The notes below the pieces were generated by a model. The model worked only from the letters and a program-made list of their open reading frames with translations. It was not told the DNA's origin and ran no database searches. The position numbers and the translations under genes are program-made. Below are positions 19,094 to 26,280 of a stretch of DNA of 64,000 nucleotides, piece by piece. Location: assembly GCF_026341515.1 (NCBI RefSeq), contig NZ_JAPEOK010000001.1, forward strand, positions 2,914,001 through 2,978,000, in the 5' to 3' direction. This DNA comes from Streptomyces sp. NBC_00878 (GTDB taxonomy: Bacteria > Actinomycetota > Actinomycetes > Streptomycetales > Streptomycetaceae). The first letter of the stretch is position 1. Every line of letters starts with the position of its first letter.

Positions 19094-19352
19094 GCGGAGT
19101 CTGCCGAATCACTTCCGGTGTCGCGGCGACGAGGAGCGGGGCGTGTGAAGAACGTGTGCGAGGTGCATGAGGGGACGCGAATCCACCTGTCGGAGGCCTC
19201 GCCCCTGACGTAGGTTCTACCCAGATGAGAGATACACCCCGTCCACAGGGGACTGTGGACGGTACCGGGTCGGGGCCTCCCCAGCTTCGCCCTGGGCGTG
19301 CCTCGCGCACACAACCGGAGCCTTGGCTCCGGGTCTCCTCACCGATCGGACA

Positions 19353-20340: not shown

Positions 20341-20697
20341 GTGGCGGACGAGGGCGAGCGGGAACAGGTGGCTGTCACCTTCGAGCGCCGCGACTACGCG
20401 CTCACCCCGTCACCGGGCGAGGTGATCCTCCCCGCACACGGCCGCATGATCCACCACGATCCGGCCTGCCTGCACCTGACCGATTCCCAGGAGCTGGGCC
20501 GTTTCGCGGATGCGGAACGAGTGCTGTGGCGTCGACTGATCGATTCGGCTCCGTCGGACGACACCGCGGGGCGTGCGAAGTTCGCCCGGTCCATCACCTG
20601 TTCTTCGCAGGGAATCCGGGCCTTCAGGCCGGGCGGGAATGCGATCCTCGATCCGGAGGCGCGCGAAGCGCCGGAGTTCTCTGCGTCTCCGGGGTGA
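20341..20697 (+). CDS. Hypothetical protein, 3' end replaced by IS left end
   Basis: 118 codons from GTG. I do not recognise the family. About the first 85 codons look like native coding sequence (VAVTFERRDYALTPSPGEV, then CLHLTDSQELGRF). After the putative IS200/IS605 left boundary at 20597/20598 the frame continues into transposon DNA for about 33 codons and ends at a TGA at 20695-20697. The native C-terminus is therefore probably lost. The gene sits where the 5' part of the McrB gene or a linked gene would be expected, but the sequence itself shows no ATPase motif. Confidence 0.55.
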   Translation: MADEGEREQVAVTFERRDYALTPSPGEVILPAHGRMIHHDPACLHLTDSQELGRFADAERVLWRRLIDSAPSDDTAGRAKFARSITCSSQGIRAFRPGGNAILDPEAREAPEFSASPG

Positions 20698-20700
20698 CGG

Positions 20701-21129
20701 TCAGACTGGGCGCTTCTGGTTCTCGATGTAGTCCGTGACGATGCTCAGCGGTGCGCCGCCGCAGGACCCTGCAAAGTAGGACGGGGACCAGAACACGGAC
20801 CCCGTGCCGATCCGGTTGATCTGGCCGGTGTACTCCGCCCGTAGGTATCGGGAGCTGACGCCCTTGAGGGAGTTGACGAGCTTGGACAGGGCGATTTTCG
20901 GCGGGTAGTGCACGAGCAGGTGGACGTGATCGCCTTCGCCGTTGAACTCGTGCAGCTGGGCGCCGAAGCTCTCGCACACCTCCCGCATGATCGCCTCGCA
21001 GCGTGTCAGCATCTCGTCGTTGAAGATCTCACGCCGGTACCTGGTGATAAACACCAAATGGACATGCAGGTTGTGGATGACATGGTTTCCCCTTCGGATA
21101 TCGGGATCTGGTTCCCAGCGTGGTGACAT
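20701..21129 (-). CDS. tnpA: IS200-type Y1 transposase TnpA
   Basis: 142 residues, full family length. It has the HUH motif in GDHVHLLVHYPP and the catalytic tyrosine in DYIENQ near the C-terminus. It catalyses single-strand excision and insertion by recognising the subterminal hairpins. Divergent from tnpB with 50 bases between the two starts, as in IS605. The frame appears intact, so the element could still be mobile. The C-terminus (YIENQKRPV) ends right at the left-end hairpin region. Confidence 0.93.
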   Translation of the reverse strand: MSPRWEPDPDIRRGNHVIHNLHVHLVFITRYRREIFNDEMLTRCEAIMREVCESFGAQLHEFNGEGDHVHLLVHYPPKIALSKLVNSLKGVSSRYLRAEYTGQINRIGTGSVFWSPSYFAGSCGGAPLSIVTDYIENQKRPV

Positions 21130-21179
21130 ACGCCAAGTGTAGTAGGATCAAGCGAACCTGACCGGAGGGGGTGGGCTGG

Positions 21180-22199
21180 ATGATCCGTGCGTACAAGTTC
21201 CTCATGCGGCCCACCTTCCGTCAGGAGCGGGCGCTGGGCGAGATGCTGCGGGATCACTGCTCCCTCTACAACGGGGCCCTGCAGGAACGCCGCGACGCCT
21301 GGCGGCACGTGTCGAAGACGAGCGTCAAGTACGGGCAGCAGTCCGCTCAGTTGAAGGAGATCCGGGCGTTCGACCCGGAGCGTCAGGGCCGGTGGTCGTT
21401 CTCCTCGCAGCAGGCGACGCTGCGCCGGCTGGACAAGGCGTTCGCCGCGTTCTTCCGCCGTATCAAAGCGGGCGACAAGCCCGGCTACCCGCGCTTTCGT
21501 GGGGTGAACTGGTTCGACACGGTCGAGTTCCCCAAGGACGGCGACGGCTGCCGGTGGGACTCCGCCCCGCACGACCCCATCACCCGCGTCCGTCTCCAGG
21601 GCGTCGGCCACGTCAAGGTCAACCGGCATCGCACCGTGGTCGGCAAGGTCAAGACGGTGTCCGTGAAGCGCGAGGGCCGTAAGTGGTTCGTCGTGGTCAC
21701 TGCCGAGCAGGGCCAGCCCGAACCGCTGCCCGCGACCGGCTCCGTGGTCGGCATCGATCTGGGCATCGCGAACTTCCTCGCCGACTCGAACGGCGATTTC
21801 GTGCCCAGCCCGCGCCACGGCCGCCGTGCGGCCGCGAAACTGGAGGCGGCGCAGCAGGCCGTGTCCCGGTTCCCGCGCCGCAAGGCGAAGGACCGAACCG
21901 CCAACCACCGGCGCGCGGTGGAGAAGGTAGCCCACATGCGTGGCAAGGTGCGGCGCCAGCGGCTCGACCACGCGCACAAGACCGCACTCGGCCTGGTCCG
22001 CGCACACGACTTCATCGCGCACGAAGACCTCAAGATCCGCAACATGAGCAAGGCCCCCGCGCCGAAACCCGACCCCAGCCGGCCTGGCGCCTTCCTGCCC
22101 AACGGGGCCGCTGCGAAGGCCGGACTCAACAAGTCGATCAACGATGCCGGATGGGGGGTGTTCCTGACGATCCTGCACGCCAAGGCTGAAAGCGCCGGA
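21180..22199 (+). CDS. tnpB: TnpB RNA-guided nuclease, exon 1 (340 codons)
   Basis: N-terminal 340 residues of TnpB: wedge/REC region, then RuvC motifs with the first catalytic Asp193 (GIDLGI) and Glu282 (AHEDLKI). Without splicing, translation would run 13 more codons into the intron and stop at a TGA at 22239-22241, losing the zinc finger and the last RuvC Asp. ATG at 21180 (MIRAYKF); a GTG at 21171 is an alternative. TnpB proteins are omega-RNA-guided DNA nucleases that help retain the element. Continues at 24714. Confidence 0.92.
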
Positions 22200-22863
22200 G
22201 TGCGACACGAAGTCGCACTAAACAAGTGGAAGCCTTTCTGAAAGGAGAGTGCGACCCAGGCCTGTGTCCGGGCCTGTTCCCCGCGCCCACATGCGTTGCT
22301 GGTAACGGCAGGGTGTGAAGCTGGGCGCTCACGCTCAAGAGCATCCCGGCCATCGGGAAGCCACAAGCAAGGGGAAAGACTGGACGGGTGAACGAAAGTG
22401 AATCTCCGACTATGCCTCGTGATTTCAAAGCTGCGCGATGGTGATGCAAACGGCAGTTGTAGGACCCGGCGTGGAAGAACGCCAGGTGATCCCCGCAGAA
22501 TCGGCAGCGGGGGCAGGACACCACCGGTCCCGGGGTAGAGGAGGCACCCACCCCAGTCGCATCTTGTTGGTGCGGAACGTGGAAACCCCGTCGGGGTCCG
22601 GAGAGATCCGGTAAGCCGACCGTAAGGGAAGCAGAAGTCCCCGGCGGGAACAGGATGACCCAAGAAGCGAATGCCGACAAGCCGAAAGGCCAGGGGAAAG
22701 CGGGAACGTCCCGTATAACCCGTCGGATACGGGCCCAGGTGGCCCGGCCCGAAAGGGAGCCCACGTGGGTCGGGTGAGCCCATGAAGAACCTACGTCAAG
22801 AGACCAGAGCCAAAGGGCAAGTTGGATGCGGGGAGGGGAATCATGTGAGCGCAGGCAGCTGCC

Positions 22864-24621
22864 TTGAACTCGTCCGTCCCGGCGAACGGACCGGAGGGCG
22901 TTTTTTTCGACTGGCACAGCATCGACTGGGCCGAGTGCGAGGAAAGCGTACGGCGACTGAGGCGCAGAATCTTCAAGGCGACGCAGGAAGGTGACCTGAA
23001 GAAGGTCCGCAATCTGCAAAAGCTCATGCTGCGCAGCCTCTCGAACACTTTGGTAAGCGTGAAGAGGGTTACGCAGCAGAGCGCGGGACGCAAGACCGCC
23101 GGCATCGACGGGAAAGTGGCCTTGACTCCGAAGGAGCGGGGCCAACTGGCGGCTGAAATCCAACAGTCGGCAACCCCGTGGAAGGCGCAGCCGGTCAAGC
23201 GTGTGTACATCCCGAAGAGCAACGGGAAACAGCGGCCACTCGGCATCCCGGTCATTCGTGACCGGGCACTCCAGGCGCGTGTGAAAAACGCGCTGGAGCC
23301 CGAATGGGAAGCCCGGTTCGAGCCGAGGTCGTACGGCTTCCGGCCTGGCCGGGGCTGCCACGACGCGATCGAGGCCATCTACAAGGCGATGGCCCGTAAG
23401 GGCTCCACGCGATTGTGGGTGCTCGACGCGGACCTGGCGGCGGCGTTCGACCGAATCAATCACGATCGGCTCATGGGCGTACTCGGGCAGTTCCCTGGCA
23501 GGGATCTGGTACGGGGATGGCTCAAGTCTGGGGTGATGGAGAAAGGCCGGTTCGCTCCGACCGAGGAGGGGACTCCTCAAGGCGGAGTGATCAGCCCCTT
23601 GCTGATGAATGTTGCCCTGCACGGAATGGAAGAAGCTGCGGGGTGCCGCTACGTAGGGAACGGGTCTCTCCCGGAACCGCGTACGGCGCGAGACTCCCCG
23701 GTCCTGGTGCGTTATGCAGACGATTTTGTGGCCCTGTGCCACAGCGAATCGGATGCGTATCAAGTCAAGGACAGGCTGGAGCAGTGGCTCGAACCGCGAG
23801 GGCTGAGGTTCAACGGGGACAAGACCCGGATCGTTCACGCGACTCAGGGCTTTGACTTCCTTGGCTTCAACCTTCGACGCTACGGGTCAAAGCTGCTGGT
23901 AAAGCCCAGCAAATCCGCCATCAAGAGAGTCCGGGAACGGCTCAGAGTCGAGGTCAAGGCCCTGTACGGGGCCAACGCCGAGGCTGTACGCAGAAAGCTC
24001 TCCCCGATCATCCGGGGATGGGCCGCCTACTACCGGACGGTGGTCGCGTCCGAGGTCTTCACAGCCCTCGACGACTACGTGTGGAAGCTCGTCTATAAAT
24101 GGGCCAAGCACACCCATCCGAAGAAACCGAAGTACTGGATCATCAAGAGCTACTTCGGCCAGTTCAACAAGTCCAGGCAGGACCAATGGGTGTTCGGCGA
24201 CCGCACCAGCGGGGCCTTCCTCGTGAAGTTCGCCTGGACCAAGATTGTCCGCCACGTCCTGATCAAGGCCGGAGCGTCTCCGGATGACCCGTCCCTGACC
24301 GAGTACTGGGAAAGTCGCCGCCGCAAGAAGGCGCCACCGCCGATGGACAAGACCAGTCTTCTCCTCGCGGTCCGGCAGAAGGGGCTATGCCCCCTGTGCC
24401 GTCAAGCGCTGATCGTCGGAGCCGAATACGAACCGGACAGCCCACGCGAGTGGATCGAATGGTTCGCGGCCTCGAAGAAGATGCTCAACAAGCATCACTT
24501 CGTTTACCGGCGCGACGGCGGAGCGGACAACAGAACGAACCTTCGTCTCGTACACGCCGACTGCCATCGCCAGCACCATGCCAGCGACGGTAAACGGCCT
24601 CGTGAGCAGGAACCCGCGTAG
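22864..24621 (+). CDS. ltrA: Group II intron reverse transcriptase/maturase with HNH domain
   Basis: 585 residues. An in-frame TGA at 22846 makes the TTG at 22864 the first possible start. Reverse transcriptase blocks include TAGIDGK, RPLGIPVIRDRALQ, YGFRPGRG, GTPQGGVISPLL and the catalytic YADDF. The maturase X domain follows (IRGWAAYYR). The C-terminus is a zinc-binding HNH endonuclease: CPLC, HHFVYRRDGG, NLRLVHADCHRQHH. It helps fold the ribozyme and carries out target-primed reverse transcription. Codon use is less GC-biased than the surrounding chromosome, as expected for an acquired element. A run of seven T at 22901-22907 near the start could be slippery. Confidence 0.93.
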   Translation: MNSSVPANGPEGVFFDWHSIDWAECEESVRRLRRRIFKATQEGDLKKVRNLQKLMLRSLSNTLVSVKRVTQQSAGRKTAGIDGKVALTPKERGQLAAEIQQSATPWKAQPVKRVYIPKSNGKQRPLGIPVIRDRALQARVKNALEPEWEARFEPRSYGFRPGRGCHDAIEAIYKAMARKGSTRLWVLDADLAAAFDRINHDRLMGVLGQFPGRDLVRGWLKSGVMEKGRFAPTEEGTPQGGVISPLLMNVALHGMEEAAGCRYVGNGSLPEPRTARDSPVLVRYADDFVALCHSESDAYQVKDRLEQWLEPRGLRFNGDKTRIVHATQGFDFLGFNLRRYGSKLLVKPSKSAIKRVRERLRVEVKALYGANAEAVRRKLSPIIRGWAAYYRTVVASEVFTALDDYVWKLVYKWAKHTHPKKPKYWIIKSYFGQFNKSRQDQWVFGDRTSGAFLVKFAWTKIVRHVLIKAGASPDDPSLTEYWESRRRKKAPPPMDKTSLLLAVRQKGLCPLCRQALIVGAEYEPDSPREWIEWFAASKKMLNKHHFVYRRDGGADNRTNLRLVHADCHRQHHASDGKRPREQEPA

Positions 24622-24638
24622 TCCATAGGGGCTTGCTT

Positions 24639-24672
24639 GAGCCGGATGCGGTTAACGTCGCACGTCCGGTTC
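24639..24672 (+). ncRNA. Group II intron domain V
   Basis: 34-nt hairpin starting GAGCCGG and ending CCGGTTC, with the internal TGCGG/GTCGCA pairing and a UAAC tetraloop: the catalytic core of group II ribozymes, carrying the AGC triad. It lies 17 bases after the maturase stop. Domain VI follows (about 24678-24706, GGGGCACAGCAATGTGCTCC hairpin), with a candidate branch A in GGCTAC near the 3' end. Confidence 0.88.
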
Positions 24673-24713
24673 TGAGGGGGCCGGGGCACAGCAATGTGCT
24701 CCGGCTACCCGAC

Positions 24714-24908
24714 CGGGAAGTGATCGCCGTGGACCCCCGCAACACCTCCCGCACCTGCCCCGAATGCGGGCGCACTGCGAAGGAGAACCGGCCCACACAG
24801 GAGAAGTTCCACTGCGTCTCGTGCGGCCACCACGCGCACGCCGACACGGTAGGCGCTCTCAACGTTCTACGGGCCGGGCTGGTCCGTCGCGACGCCGACC
24901 CAGCGTAA
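24714..24908 (+). CDS. tnpB: TnpB, exon 2 (64 codons plus stop)
   Basis: Encodes REVIAVDPRNTSRTCPECG, the rest of the four-cysteine zinc finger (CVSCG) and the last RuvC aspartate, Asp384 in HADTVGA. Spliced to exon 1 this gives a 404-residue TnpB with all three RuvC residues (Asp193, Glu282, Asp384). The frame has no internal lesion. The 3' end of this exon and the right-end hairpin are where the guide (omega) RNA scaffold of such elements is normally encoded. Confidence 0.9.
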   Translation, partial: REVIAVDPRNTSRTCPECGRTAKENRPTQEKFHCVSCGHHAHADTVGALNVLRAGLVRRDADPA

Positions 24909-24915
24909 CGAGAAG

Positions 24916-24935
24916 CCCCCGGCTTCAGCCGGGGG
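24916..24935. repeat. IS right-end subterminal hairpin
   Basis: Perfect 9-bp arms CCCCCGGCT and AGCCGGGGG with a two-base loop, 9 bases before the TCAC at the element's right edge. The left end has a similar but imperfect hairpin sharing GCCTTCAGGC. TnpA recognises such hairpins as single-stranded DNA. Confidence 0.85.
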
Positions 24936-24944
24936 AGGAGTCAC

Positions 24945-25079
24945 GTGGAACAGCTGCACCTGGCGGACCTGCTCGACTCGCTCAACCAGCGCATCCGTAC
25001 GCATCTCGACCGCGAGAAGCAGATCGGCCAGGCCTTCTTCCTGCCGAACGGCGCTCCCGTCGGCCGGGGCCGGGCGTCT
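24945..25079 (+). pseudogene. 3' remnant of mcrB
   Basis: Directly after the right end, the frame from 24945 reads LHLADLLDSLNQRI then LDREKQIGQAFFLPNGAPV, the conserved late segment of McrB-type AAA+ GTPases (usually ...LDRE.QIGHSYF). The upstream P-loop part is missing, and after FFLPNGAPV the sequence leaves the family. It precedes an mcrC-like gene, as in McrBC operons. The McrB subunit is therefore lost and restriction by this system is very probably inactive. Confidence 0.75.
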
Positions 25080-25113
25080 CCGTGTCCGCGAACTCGCCGG
25101 AGGAAGGCTGGAG

Positions 25114-26280
25114 TTGACCGCGGGGCCGTGTGTCGGGGTCGTCCGCCTCGACGCCTGCGAGGTCCGCGTCCTGCCCAAGTACCTGGGCGAGGAGCTGGAC
25201 GTCCTGCGGATGCTGGAGTACGCGGCCGGGCGCGCACTGCCCGTGCTCGACGCGGCCCGCACGGTGCGCGAGGGAGCTCCCCATCTCCGGGACCTGGTCG
25301 CACTCCTGGTGACGGAGCACTGCGAACGGCTGCTGGCGCGCGGGGTGCGCCGCGACTATGTGACGGTCGAGGACGAACTGCCCGCGGTCCGGGGCCGGTT
25401 GCTGGCCGACCGTCAGGTCCTGCGGCACTACGGGCGGCTGGACCGGCTGGCCTGCCGCTTCGACGAGCACGACGCGGACATCGTGGACAACCGGCTGTGC
25501 GCCGCCGCACTCGATCTCGCGGCGCGTACGGCGCGCTCCCCCGCGGTACGCGCCAGGGCCCGGCGAGCCGCCGCTCAGTTCGCCCAGGTGGCCCCGACAC
25601 CGCTCGGTGATCTGCGCACGGCCCTGGCGGGGCTCGACTACCACCGGCACAACAGCCACTACGAGACCGCGCATCGCTGGGCGGCGCTGCTCCTGTCCGG
25701 CGGCGGCATCACGGACCTGTTCGCCGGAGGGTCGCTCTCCTCCCGGGCGTTCCTCATCGACATGAACGTGCTGTTCGAGTCGTTCGCCACCCAGCTGCTG
25801 CGGGAGGCCGCGGCCGGTACGGGCTATGTCGTCCGGGGCCAGTCCCGGCACGCCGGGGTGCTGCACGACGAGCGAACGGGCCGCTCCTACACCGAGGTTC
25901 GGCCCGACGTCCTGCTCTCCGGCAGTGTCGACGGGGCACCACTGACGCGCCCCGTCGACATCAAGTACAAGCTGTACGAGGGCAGCGGGCTCGCGACCGC
26001 CGACCTCTACCAGGCGTTTCTCTACGCCCATGCGCTGGGCCGGCAGCCCGGTGGCGGGCCGCCCACCTGTGTCCTGCTGCATCCCGGCGGGACGGGCGGG
26101 TCGTCGGTGTCACGCGAGAGCGTTGCCGTGCGCCGCTGGGACGGCAGCACTTCGGCCCGCGTACGGTCCGTGTCCCTCGACCTGCCGTCGGTGCTCGGCG
26201 CCCTGGGAGGCGCCGAGCGGAAGACGACACTACGGAAGACGGCAACGCTCACGAGGCTGCTCGCGGCAGTGCTGGAGTGA
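25114..26280 (+). CDS. mcrC: McrC-like restriction endonuclease subunit, N-terminally short
   Basis: 388 codons from a TTG preceded by GGAGGAAGG. VGVVRLDACEVRVLPKYLG and VEDELPAVRGRLL are typical McrC blocks, and the PD-(D/E)XK nuclease core is visible as YTEVRPDVLLSG followed by RPVDIKYKLYEG. McrC cleaves modified DNA in complex with McrB GTPase. The usual first 40-60 residues are missing or fused: the frame stays open upstream into the mcrB remnant (LRVRELAGGRLELTAG), pointing to an internal deletion joining the two genes. Probably a relic without its partner. Convergent with the chitinase gene, 36 bases apart. Confidence 0.82.
   Translation: MTAGPCVGVVRLDACEVRVLPKYLGEELDVLRMLEYAAGRALPVLDAARTVREGAPHLRDLVALLVTEHCERLLARGVRRDYVTVEDELPAVRGRLLADRQVLRHYGRLDRLACRFDEHDADIVDNRLCAAALDLAARTARSPAVRARARRAAAQFAQVAPTPLGDLRTALAGLDYHRHNSHYETAHRWAALLLSGGGITDLFAGGSLSSRAFLIDMNVLFESFATQLLREAAAGTGYVVRGQSRHAGVLHDERTGRSYTEVRPDVLLSGSVDGAPLTRPVDIKYKLYEGSGLATADLYQAFLYAHALGRQPGGGPPTCVLLHPGGTGGSSVSRESVAVRRWDGSTSARVRSVSLDLPSVLGALGGAERKTTLRKTATLTRLLAAVLE

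Follow-up and report, generated by a model that had tools for sequence, protein, structure and literature searches.

A group II intron seated in the tnpB gene of a Streptomyces IS605-type element and related to introns in many transposase genes

In a 64,000-nucleotide stretch of Streptomyces sp. NBC_00878 (contig NZ_JAPEOK010000001.1, positions 2,914,001 to 2,978,000; hereafter the window), an insertion sequence (IS) of the IS605 type carries a group II intron inside tnpB, the gene of its predicted RNA-guided nuclease. We consider it probable that a mobile and intact intron reached a conserved tnpB site by homing and that its splicing restores TnpB. As the original prediction had claimed, the complete intron (22200..24713, plus strand, the same strand as tnpB) lies exactly after codon 340, which is borne out by Rfam models, by exon joining and by empty sites at 22199|24714. 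Beyond that prediction, the intron is one of a family with transposase genes in general as targets, it appears to have homed laterally at this tnpB site, and a gating role has been proposed before for another IS/intron pair.

The intron is 2514 nt long and begins with GTGCGACACG, as predicted. A covariance-model check of domains V and VI had been set beforehand as the test by which the prediction could fail; RF00029, which covers both domains, matches 24637-24713 with 55.3 bits against a gathering threshold of 40, and RF02012, a piece of domain I, matches 22256-22342 with 42.2 bits against a threshold of 34. Domain V (24639..24672, +) and domain VI (24676..24710, +) were placed with RF00029 and an alignment of 16 introns. 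In this alignment, 15 of the 28 consensus pairs of the two domains show at least one compensatory change, pairs are broken in at most four sequences and at a single outer pair of domain V, and the bulged branch-point A at 24707, seven from the intron end, is invariant (16/16). The intron encodes a reverse transcriptase (RT)/maturase of 585 aa (22864..24621, +) whose start codon is uncertain, the first after the in-frame stop being TTG. Its frame is open with all four domains, each above the Pfam cut-off (RVT_1, 141.8 bits; RVT_N, 110.4; GIIM, 67.6; HNH, 30.1), which confirms the predicted HNH-type maturase, and the nearest solved structure is 6me0 (E 1.5e-117). The marks of a group II intron are present: a domain V with the catalytic triad, a domain VI with the bulged A, pairing between exon-binding sites and exons, and an intron-encoded RT/maturase. 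The intron, which is single copy in its own 11.1-Mb genome, is structurally complete and appears to be of the mobile type, and it would be expected to splice in vivo.

Joining 22199 to 24714 restores a single frame of 404 codons from the ATG at 21180, as had been predicted. Exon 1 (21180..22199, +) supplies codons 1-340 with the regions of the RuvC-I Asp and the RuvC-II Glu, and exon 2 (24714..24908, +) supplies codons 341-404 and the stop. In Pfam, exon 1 matches OrfB_IS605 and exon 2 matches the Cas12f1-like TNB (zinc ribbon) domain, PF07282. The joined protein aligns with ISDra2 TnpB (8h1j) over residues 4-401 (E 1.4e-27), and its domains and the alignment with 8h1j and 8bf8 show that it carries the RuvC D/E/D and the zinc ribbon of an RNA-guided TnpB nuclease, which it is predicted to be. 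TnpB is an ancestor-like RNA-guided nuclease of Cas12 and is also used as an editing tool. In the 8h1j alignment, exon 2 contains both the zinc-ribbon cysteines and the Asp conserved last in the protein (ADTVGALN / RDENAALN). Without splicing, translation of tnpB would run 13 residues into the intron and then terminate; such a product has neither the zinc ribbon nor the final RuvC Asp, and splicing should therefore be required for nuclease activity. The truncation had been described correctly in the original prediction, and the anatomy of the locus supports its further claim that full-length TnpB would depend on splicing. The next-best TnpB match in the same genome is only 33% identical.

Six distinct intronless copies run through the junction, contiguous at 22199|24714. 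These are L056 (95% identical), L062 (85%), L061 (81%) and L063 (80%) and, in genome G024, L155/L199 (one place, 87%) and L200 (86%). Five intronless copies were tried for an open reading frame (ORF): an intact 404-aa TnpB is present in L056, L062 and L199, L200 is frameshifted in exon 2 after the site, and no ORF was recovered from L061 with the start pattern used. L187, L188, L189 and L194 are uninterrupted at the site as well, and a probe spanning domains V and VI and exon 2 (D5/D6-exon 2) showed that in dozens of 363 Streptomyces genomes exon 2 is present but the intron end is not. The search for the same junction with and without the intron, suggested along with the original prediction, yielded two carriers, G011 and P0121, besides these copies. 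The tnpB of the Streptomyces mirabilis plasmid copy L063 was considered as the seat of a second intron and rejected, since its 22199|24714 site is intact and the insert occupies another part of the gene. At L063:3171-5321, an unlike insert of ~2.15 kb, the flanks of which overlap by 17 bp, disrupts this IS605-type tnpB close to the 5′ end.

The joined tnpB of the window, compared with that of L056, has a ratio of nonsynonymous to synonymous substitution rates (dN/dS) of 0.27 overall and 0.15 in exon 2. On the window's branch, 15 synonymous and 18 non-synonymous changes were counted, a synonymous excess over the neutral expectation (binomial p 0.009); since the insertion is undatable on this branch, such purifying selection supports, but does not show, the usefulness of a spliced TnpB. 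The same data bear on whether the intron has lost splicing, leaving tnpB a pseudogene and the IS kept only via tnpA. The presence of a single intron copy in the genome and the decay of the G011 copy, in which 22160 to 24517 is deleted, would suit such a dead insertion, but domains V and VI, the branch-point A, the exon pairings and the maturase frame with GIIM and HNH are all intact, and both tnpB exons are open at the dN/dS given above; we regard this explanation as unlikely.

The sites by which a mobile, splicing intron would recognize tnpB were located by covariation between exon-binding sites (EBS) and intron-binding sites (IBS). Over the first ~780 nt of the alignment, each column was slid against the exon ends in 58 distinct intron/target pairs, with no site assumed. 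For the last exon bases, a strong signal appears at 22500 only (4.53/6 versus 2.19), and the best scan column, 22500-22501, has a z of 15-17, a value that is not a probability since the pairs are phylogenetically related. This places EBS1 (TCGGC, 22501..22505, +) opposite IBS1 (GCCGG, 22194..22198, +). Bases -8 to -13 point to 22422 (3.97/6 versus 1.88), and EBS2 (TTTCA, 22423..22427, +), the best column at IBS offset 7 with a z of 15.6 that is to be read in the same way, pairs with IBS2 (TGAAA, 22187..22191, +). EBS3 (G22538, +) can pair with C24714, the base that opens exon 2; across the alignment this column is complementary in 51/56 intron/target pairs, where 26% was expected and the next-best column reached 54%. 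The intron of the window makes five EBS1 pairs (one G-U), five EBS2 pairs and one EBS3 pair. EBS3 lies 38 nt from EBS1, and the distant EBS3-IBS3 contact is present. EBS1, EBS2 and a distant EBS3, which we take as marks of subclass IIB, are all found, and the subclass is assigned by these features.

A decayed copy with the same junction (L196) is present in G011, a second Streptomyces genome, where the deletion left 138 nt of exon 1 directly joined to the terminal 197 nt of the intron, followed by exon 2. The intron piece is 192/197 (97.5%) identical to that of the window, versus 123/138 (89%) and 200/235 (85%) for the exon pieces, and the difference in mismatches (5/197 in the intron, 41/364 in the exons) is significant (Fisher p 1.6e-4). 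Conservation of the intron piece used in this comparison is not exceptional, with 69-81% identity versus 71-77% for the whole intron in 10 other introns. In P0121, a predicted protein of S. botrytidirepellens, a stretch derived from domains V and VI (29/29 identical) is joined to a TnpB C-terminus that is 42/58 (72%) identical to that of the window, a comparison at the protein level. Since the intron is more alike between carriers than its host exons, it appears to have moved laterally between tnpB alleles (two comparisons, one with a decayed copy and one with a protein only), and retrohoming would be the natural reading of these moves. One old insertion, inherited with the IS without lateral movement of the intron, would agree with exon pieces that are still 85-89% alike in G011 and belong to the same element type. 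That history is quite improbable, as the exons of the window are nearer to those of the intronless L056 (133/138, 96%, and 216/231, 93.5%) than to those of the intron-bearing L196 with its nearly identical intron, and as in P0121 an identical intron end is attached to a much less similar TnpB. Misassembly was also considered and is unlikely because G011 and P0121 show the 3′ junction again and the window lies within a large contig. Separately, a 357-nt 3′ fragment of the intron, 97.2% identical, is found in Streptomyces sp. NBC_01549 (L052:3997-4353), where it is not beside tnpB.

Several points weigh against the proposal that a mobile intron homed into tnpB and splices there. The proposal is drawn entirely from DNA and protein sequence. 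With a decayed copy in G011 and only a protein for P0121, gene conversion is possible in place of retrohoming. Occupancy of this tnpB site is rare among the genomes searched: among the matches listed for the D5/D6-exon 2 probe, with two candidates scored per genome, only G000, the genome of the window, and G011 span the junction; a strict pattern over 394 family genomes found only G011; an exon 1/intron pattern over 392 Streptomyces genomes gave 22 places in 21 genomes, and of the 20 loci retrieved the window is the sole tnpB case, the others being mostly chance or other genes (L068 and L083 look IS4-like); and a search for read-through proteins returned only the window's own cluster among the best 120 of 1538 matches. 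Changes in exon 2 on the window's branch are just 4:2, which are tiny counts, and the selection test is not datable relative to the intron insertion. The intron/target pairs of the covariation scan are related by descent and are not independent points. An EBS1 at 22607 (TCCGGT), which would form six pairs with IBS1, was tried and rejected, its column being conserved and showing no covariation (2.78/6 versus 2.76 shuffled, n 50).

Matches to the maturase at E <= 1e-50 occur in 90/392 Streptomyces-genus genomes, a count that includes more distant RTs, and in 43 loci of a species collection. Of 117 loci considered, three from Mycobacterium were left out; 113 have maturase matches, 101 of them at >=50% identity, and both intron ends were located in 63 loci, which represent 59 distinct sites. 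Target genes were typed by homology to 19 exon pieces, 16 of which have some Pfam match to a transposase, an integrase or its helix-turn-helix (HTH) domain (L118 and exon 1 of L099 have none, and L131 has a weak HTH only). In this typing the intron is inserted in the sense orientation within a transposase or recombinase gene at 35/59 sites (IS630, 9; IS30, 8; tnpB, 6; IS5, 5; IS4, 4; tyrosine integrase, ISAzo13 and IS1380, 1 each), one opposes the strand of an IS30-like gene and 23/59 have no match, a class that includes transposase types outside the probes since these were drawn from the same loci. The single cases are L110 (tyrosine integrase), L122 (ISAzo13) and L130 (IS1380), and a further host type occurs once in L131 (QVDWG^DEG), whose target we presume to be IS21-like. 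Insertion points recur by sub-clade (YHERW^E in IS4, EGD^LI in IS30, SWLN..^E in IS630 and NRLK^ in IS5), and several of the residues at these points are presumably catalytic.

Introns of this family enter tnpB at four different places. The first, near the N-terminus, is YNYR^VYP or YAFR^LYP (L013 and L014, with L015/L092 at the same site by sequence); the second, WYGSF^V, lies before RuvC-I (L099); the third, AG^REV, is that of the window, G011 and P0121; and the fourth is TS[RK]^WG (L016 from Actinomadura, and L100). Pfam confirms tnpB for L013, L014 and exon 2 of L099, and its matches for L016 and L100 are weak and below cut-off. In a quick tree of 98 maturases, 81 of them different, the tnpB label needs one change versus the IS30, IS4 and IS630 rows. 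The intron of L057, which sits in an IS5-type gene, is sister to that of the window (support 99), L016 and L100 lie on another branch, and the seven-row group with the window has a support of just 81. We do not claim the tnpB insertions as one clade, for the placement of L057 and the branch of L016/L100 speak otherwise.

Among the other loci, related introns in L096 (790/3326), L112 (3098), L150 (3274), L183, L191 and L192 end right before TGAGCGCACTCACC and split, as A^TG, the ATG with which a gene of ~195 aa, presumably Uma2-like, begins downstream. The 5′ side in L096 is GGAG-AACCGCCA^, and L182 has the same A^TG split start ahead of an unrelated acetyltransferase-like ORF. Nested introns were observed in L034 (61/4104), L103/L107 and the 3′ flank of L032, where members of the family are inserted within the RT gene of another group II intron (TEEGTPQGGV^ISPVLMN; SDGFDFL^GF).

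The spread of targets bears on what the intron does to its host. It may be a passive passenger that is spliced efficiently and constitutively, with the TnpB level and element retention hardly altered and tnpB one of many transposase targets. Its relatives sit in many transposase types, all in sense at the 35 sites, and target choice tracks EBS/IBS complementarity, for which no regulatory purpose is needed. Nothing speaks directly against it, and the inefficient splicing argued for the intron RmInt1 in its host IS, in the available part of PMC4238363, is the contrary case; we put the chances of this explanation at even.

The element spans 20602..24944 on the plus strand, that of tnpB, with an approximate left end, as homology to the intronless copies begins near 20602 and ends at 24944. 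Without the intron it is ~1829 bp long, and its right end lies directly after GGAGTCAC. The left-end palindrome CCGGGCCTTCAGGCCGGG (20616..20633, no strand), read directly from the sequence, is like a hairpin in L056 and L062; the hairpin of the right-end palindrome CCCCCGGCTTCAGCCGGGGG (24916..24935, no strand) and the GGAGTCAC boundary are common to L056, L062, L061, L199 and L200. An intact tnpA for a Y1 (HUH) transposase of 142 aa (20701..21129, -; Pfam Y1_Tnp, 140 bits) diverges from tnpB on the opposite strand between these palindromic ends, as in the IS200/IS605 type, and the predicted element type holds. In IS605 elements the omega-RNA is produced from the tnpB 3′ end and the right end of the element; its expected source here is 24714..24944 (+), wholly on the exon 2 side, and the guide would begin at 24945. 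To the right, within 24945-26280, the element adjoins an McrC-like gene (PF10117, 25114-26280), and a short stretch upstream of that gene resembles the McrB C-terminus by eye; no N-terminal part of McrB was seen to the left of the element in the window. The Streptomyces small RNA Scr5676 (RF02832) lies at 19223-19350 (133.7 bits).

If the intron homed and splices as we propose, its excised ribonucleoprotein (RNP) would recognize tnpB DNA through EBS2 and EBS1 on the final ~13 exon 1 bases, with EBS3 on the first base of exon 2, reverse-splice into this DNA and then be copied (retrohoming). The pre-mRNA would yield the maturase, which would aid removal of the intron; with the maturase, the same EBS pairings would serve to splice the intron from the RNA and join codons 340 and 341. 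The ligated exons would encode a TnpB with the zinc ribbon and the third RuvC Asp, and the excised RNP could enter further empty tnpB sites. Since the intron includes neither tnpA nor the right-end (omega-RNA) region, only the nuclease protein would depend on splicing.

The original prediction had also suggested that element retention, through nuclease activity, would depend on intron splicing, with one mobile element gating another. If splicing were limiting or conditional, the nuclease protein but not the guide RNA would be throttled and the fates of intron and IS would be coupled. The position of the intron, which removes the zinc ribbon and the third RuvC Asp unless it is spliced, and the probable omega-RNA region downstream of the 3′ splice site argue for this, as does the proposal published for RmInt1/ISRm2011-2 in the part of PMC4238363 available to us. 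The tnpB of the window has no relaxed constraint, which would tell neither way, and we hold such gating to be possible but doubtful. A wider and equally tentative idea is that an actinobacterial intron lineage homes into catalytic or conserved motifs of transposon genes, with one branch entering tnpB at several independent sites; the intron would throttle TnpB, and the retention activity of TnpB would keep the intron-bearing copy. As the nuclease would work only after splicing, intron and IS would share one fate, and with the omega-RNA wholly downstream of the 3′ splice site the guide would be made regardless and only the protein gated.

A TnpB protein that depends on ribozyme splicing, with a guide RNA that does not, would be a natural ready-made genetic switch and a test case for conflict or alliance among mobile elements. 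It would also offer a testable model of a retroelement lineage specialized on the conserved motifs of other transposons, in which target recognition is legible as covarying base pairs.

The arrangement shares features with several known systems. The joined TnpB resembles ISDra2 TnpB (8h1j, 8bf8) along nearly its whole length, and the ISDra2 tnpB has, to our knowledge, no intron. The maturase aligns over residues 16-580, including the HNH region, with that of the Thermosynechococcus group II intron TeI4h (6me0), which comes from another phylum and has another target; we know of no association of TeI4h with tnpB. The original prediction had likened the arrangement to an IStron, though with a group II in place of a group I intron; an IStron also combines a self-splicing intron with an IS605-type element and tnpB. 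In the parts of PMC4227781 and PMC3073962 that were available, the IStron has a group I ribozyme, the IS lies within the intron and the whole chimera is spliced from the host RNA. We did not retain the likeness, because here, unlike in the IS605 or IS607 elements with a group I intron, the intron is group II and is nested in tnpB within the IS, and its empty sites are intact tnpB genes. No group I ribozyme was found in a scan of the window at gathering thresholds, where Scr5676 and the two group II families are the matches. In the literature on group II introns with tnpB or IS605, part of which was sampled, no description of tnpB interrupted by a group II intron was found, and this is not proof of absence. 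The insertion sequence ISRm2011-2 belongs to the IS630-Tc1 family and is not of the IS200/IS605 type. In Sinorhizobium meliloti, according to the accessible portion of PMC4238363, the group II intron RmInt1 is likewise seated in a gene of this IS, and its poor, unproductive splicing is argued to limit transposition of the host IS; the idea of gating therefore has a precedent. The RmInt1 protein has no endonuclease domain in the sections seen of PMC8914252, whereas the protein described here has an HNH domain, and the interrupted gene is tnpB, an accessory RNA-guided nuclease, while the transposase gene tnpA is intact.

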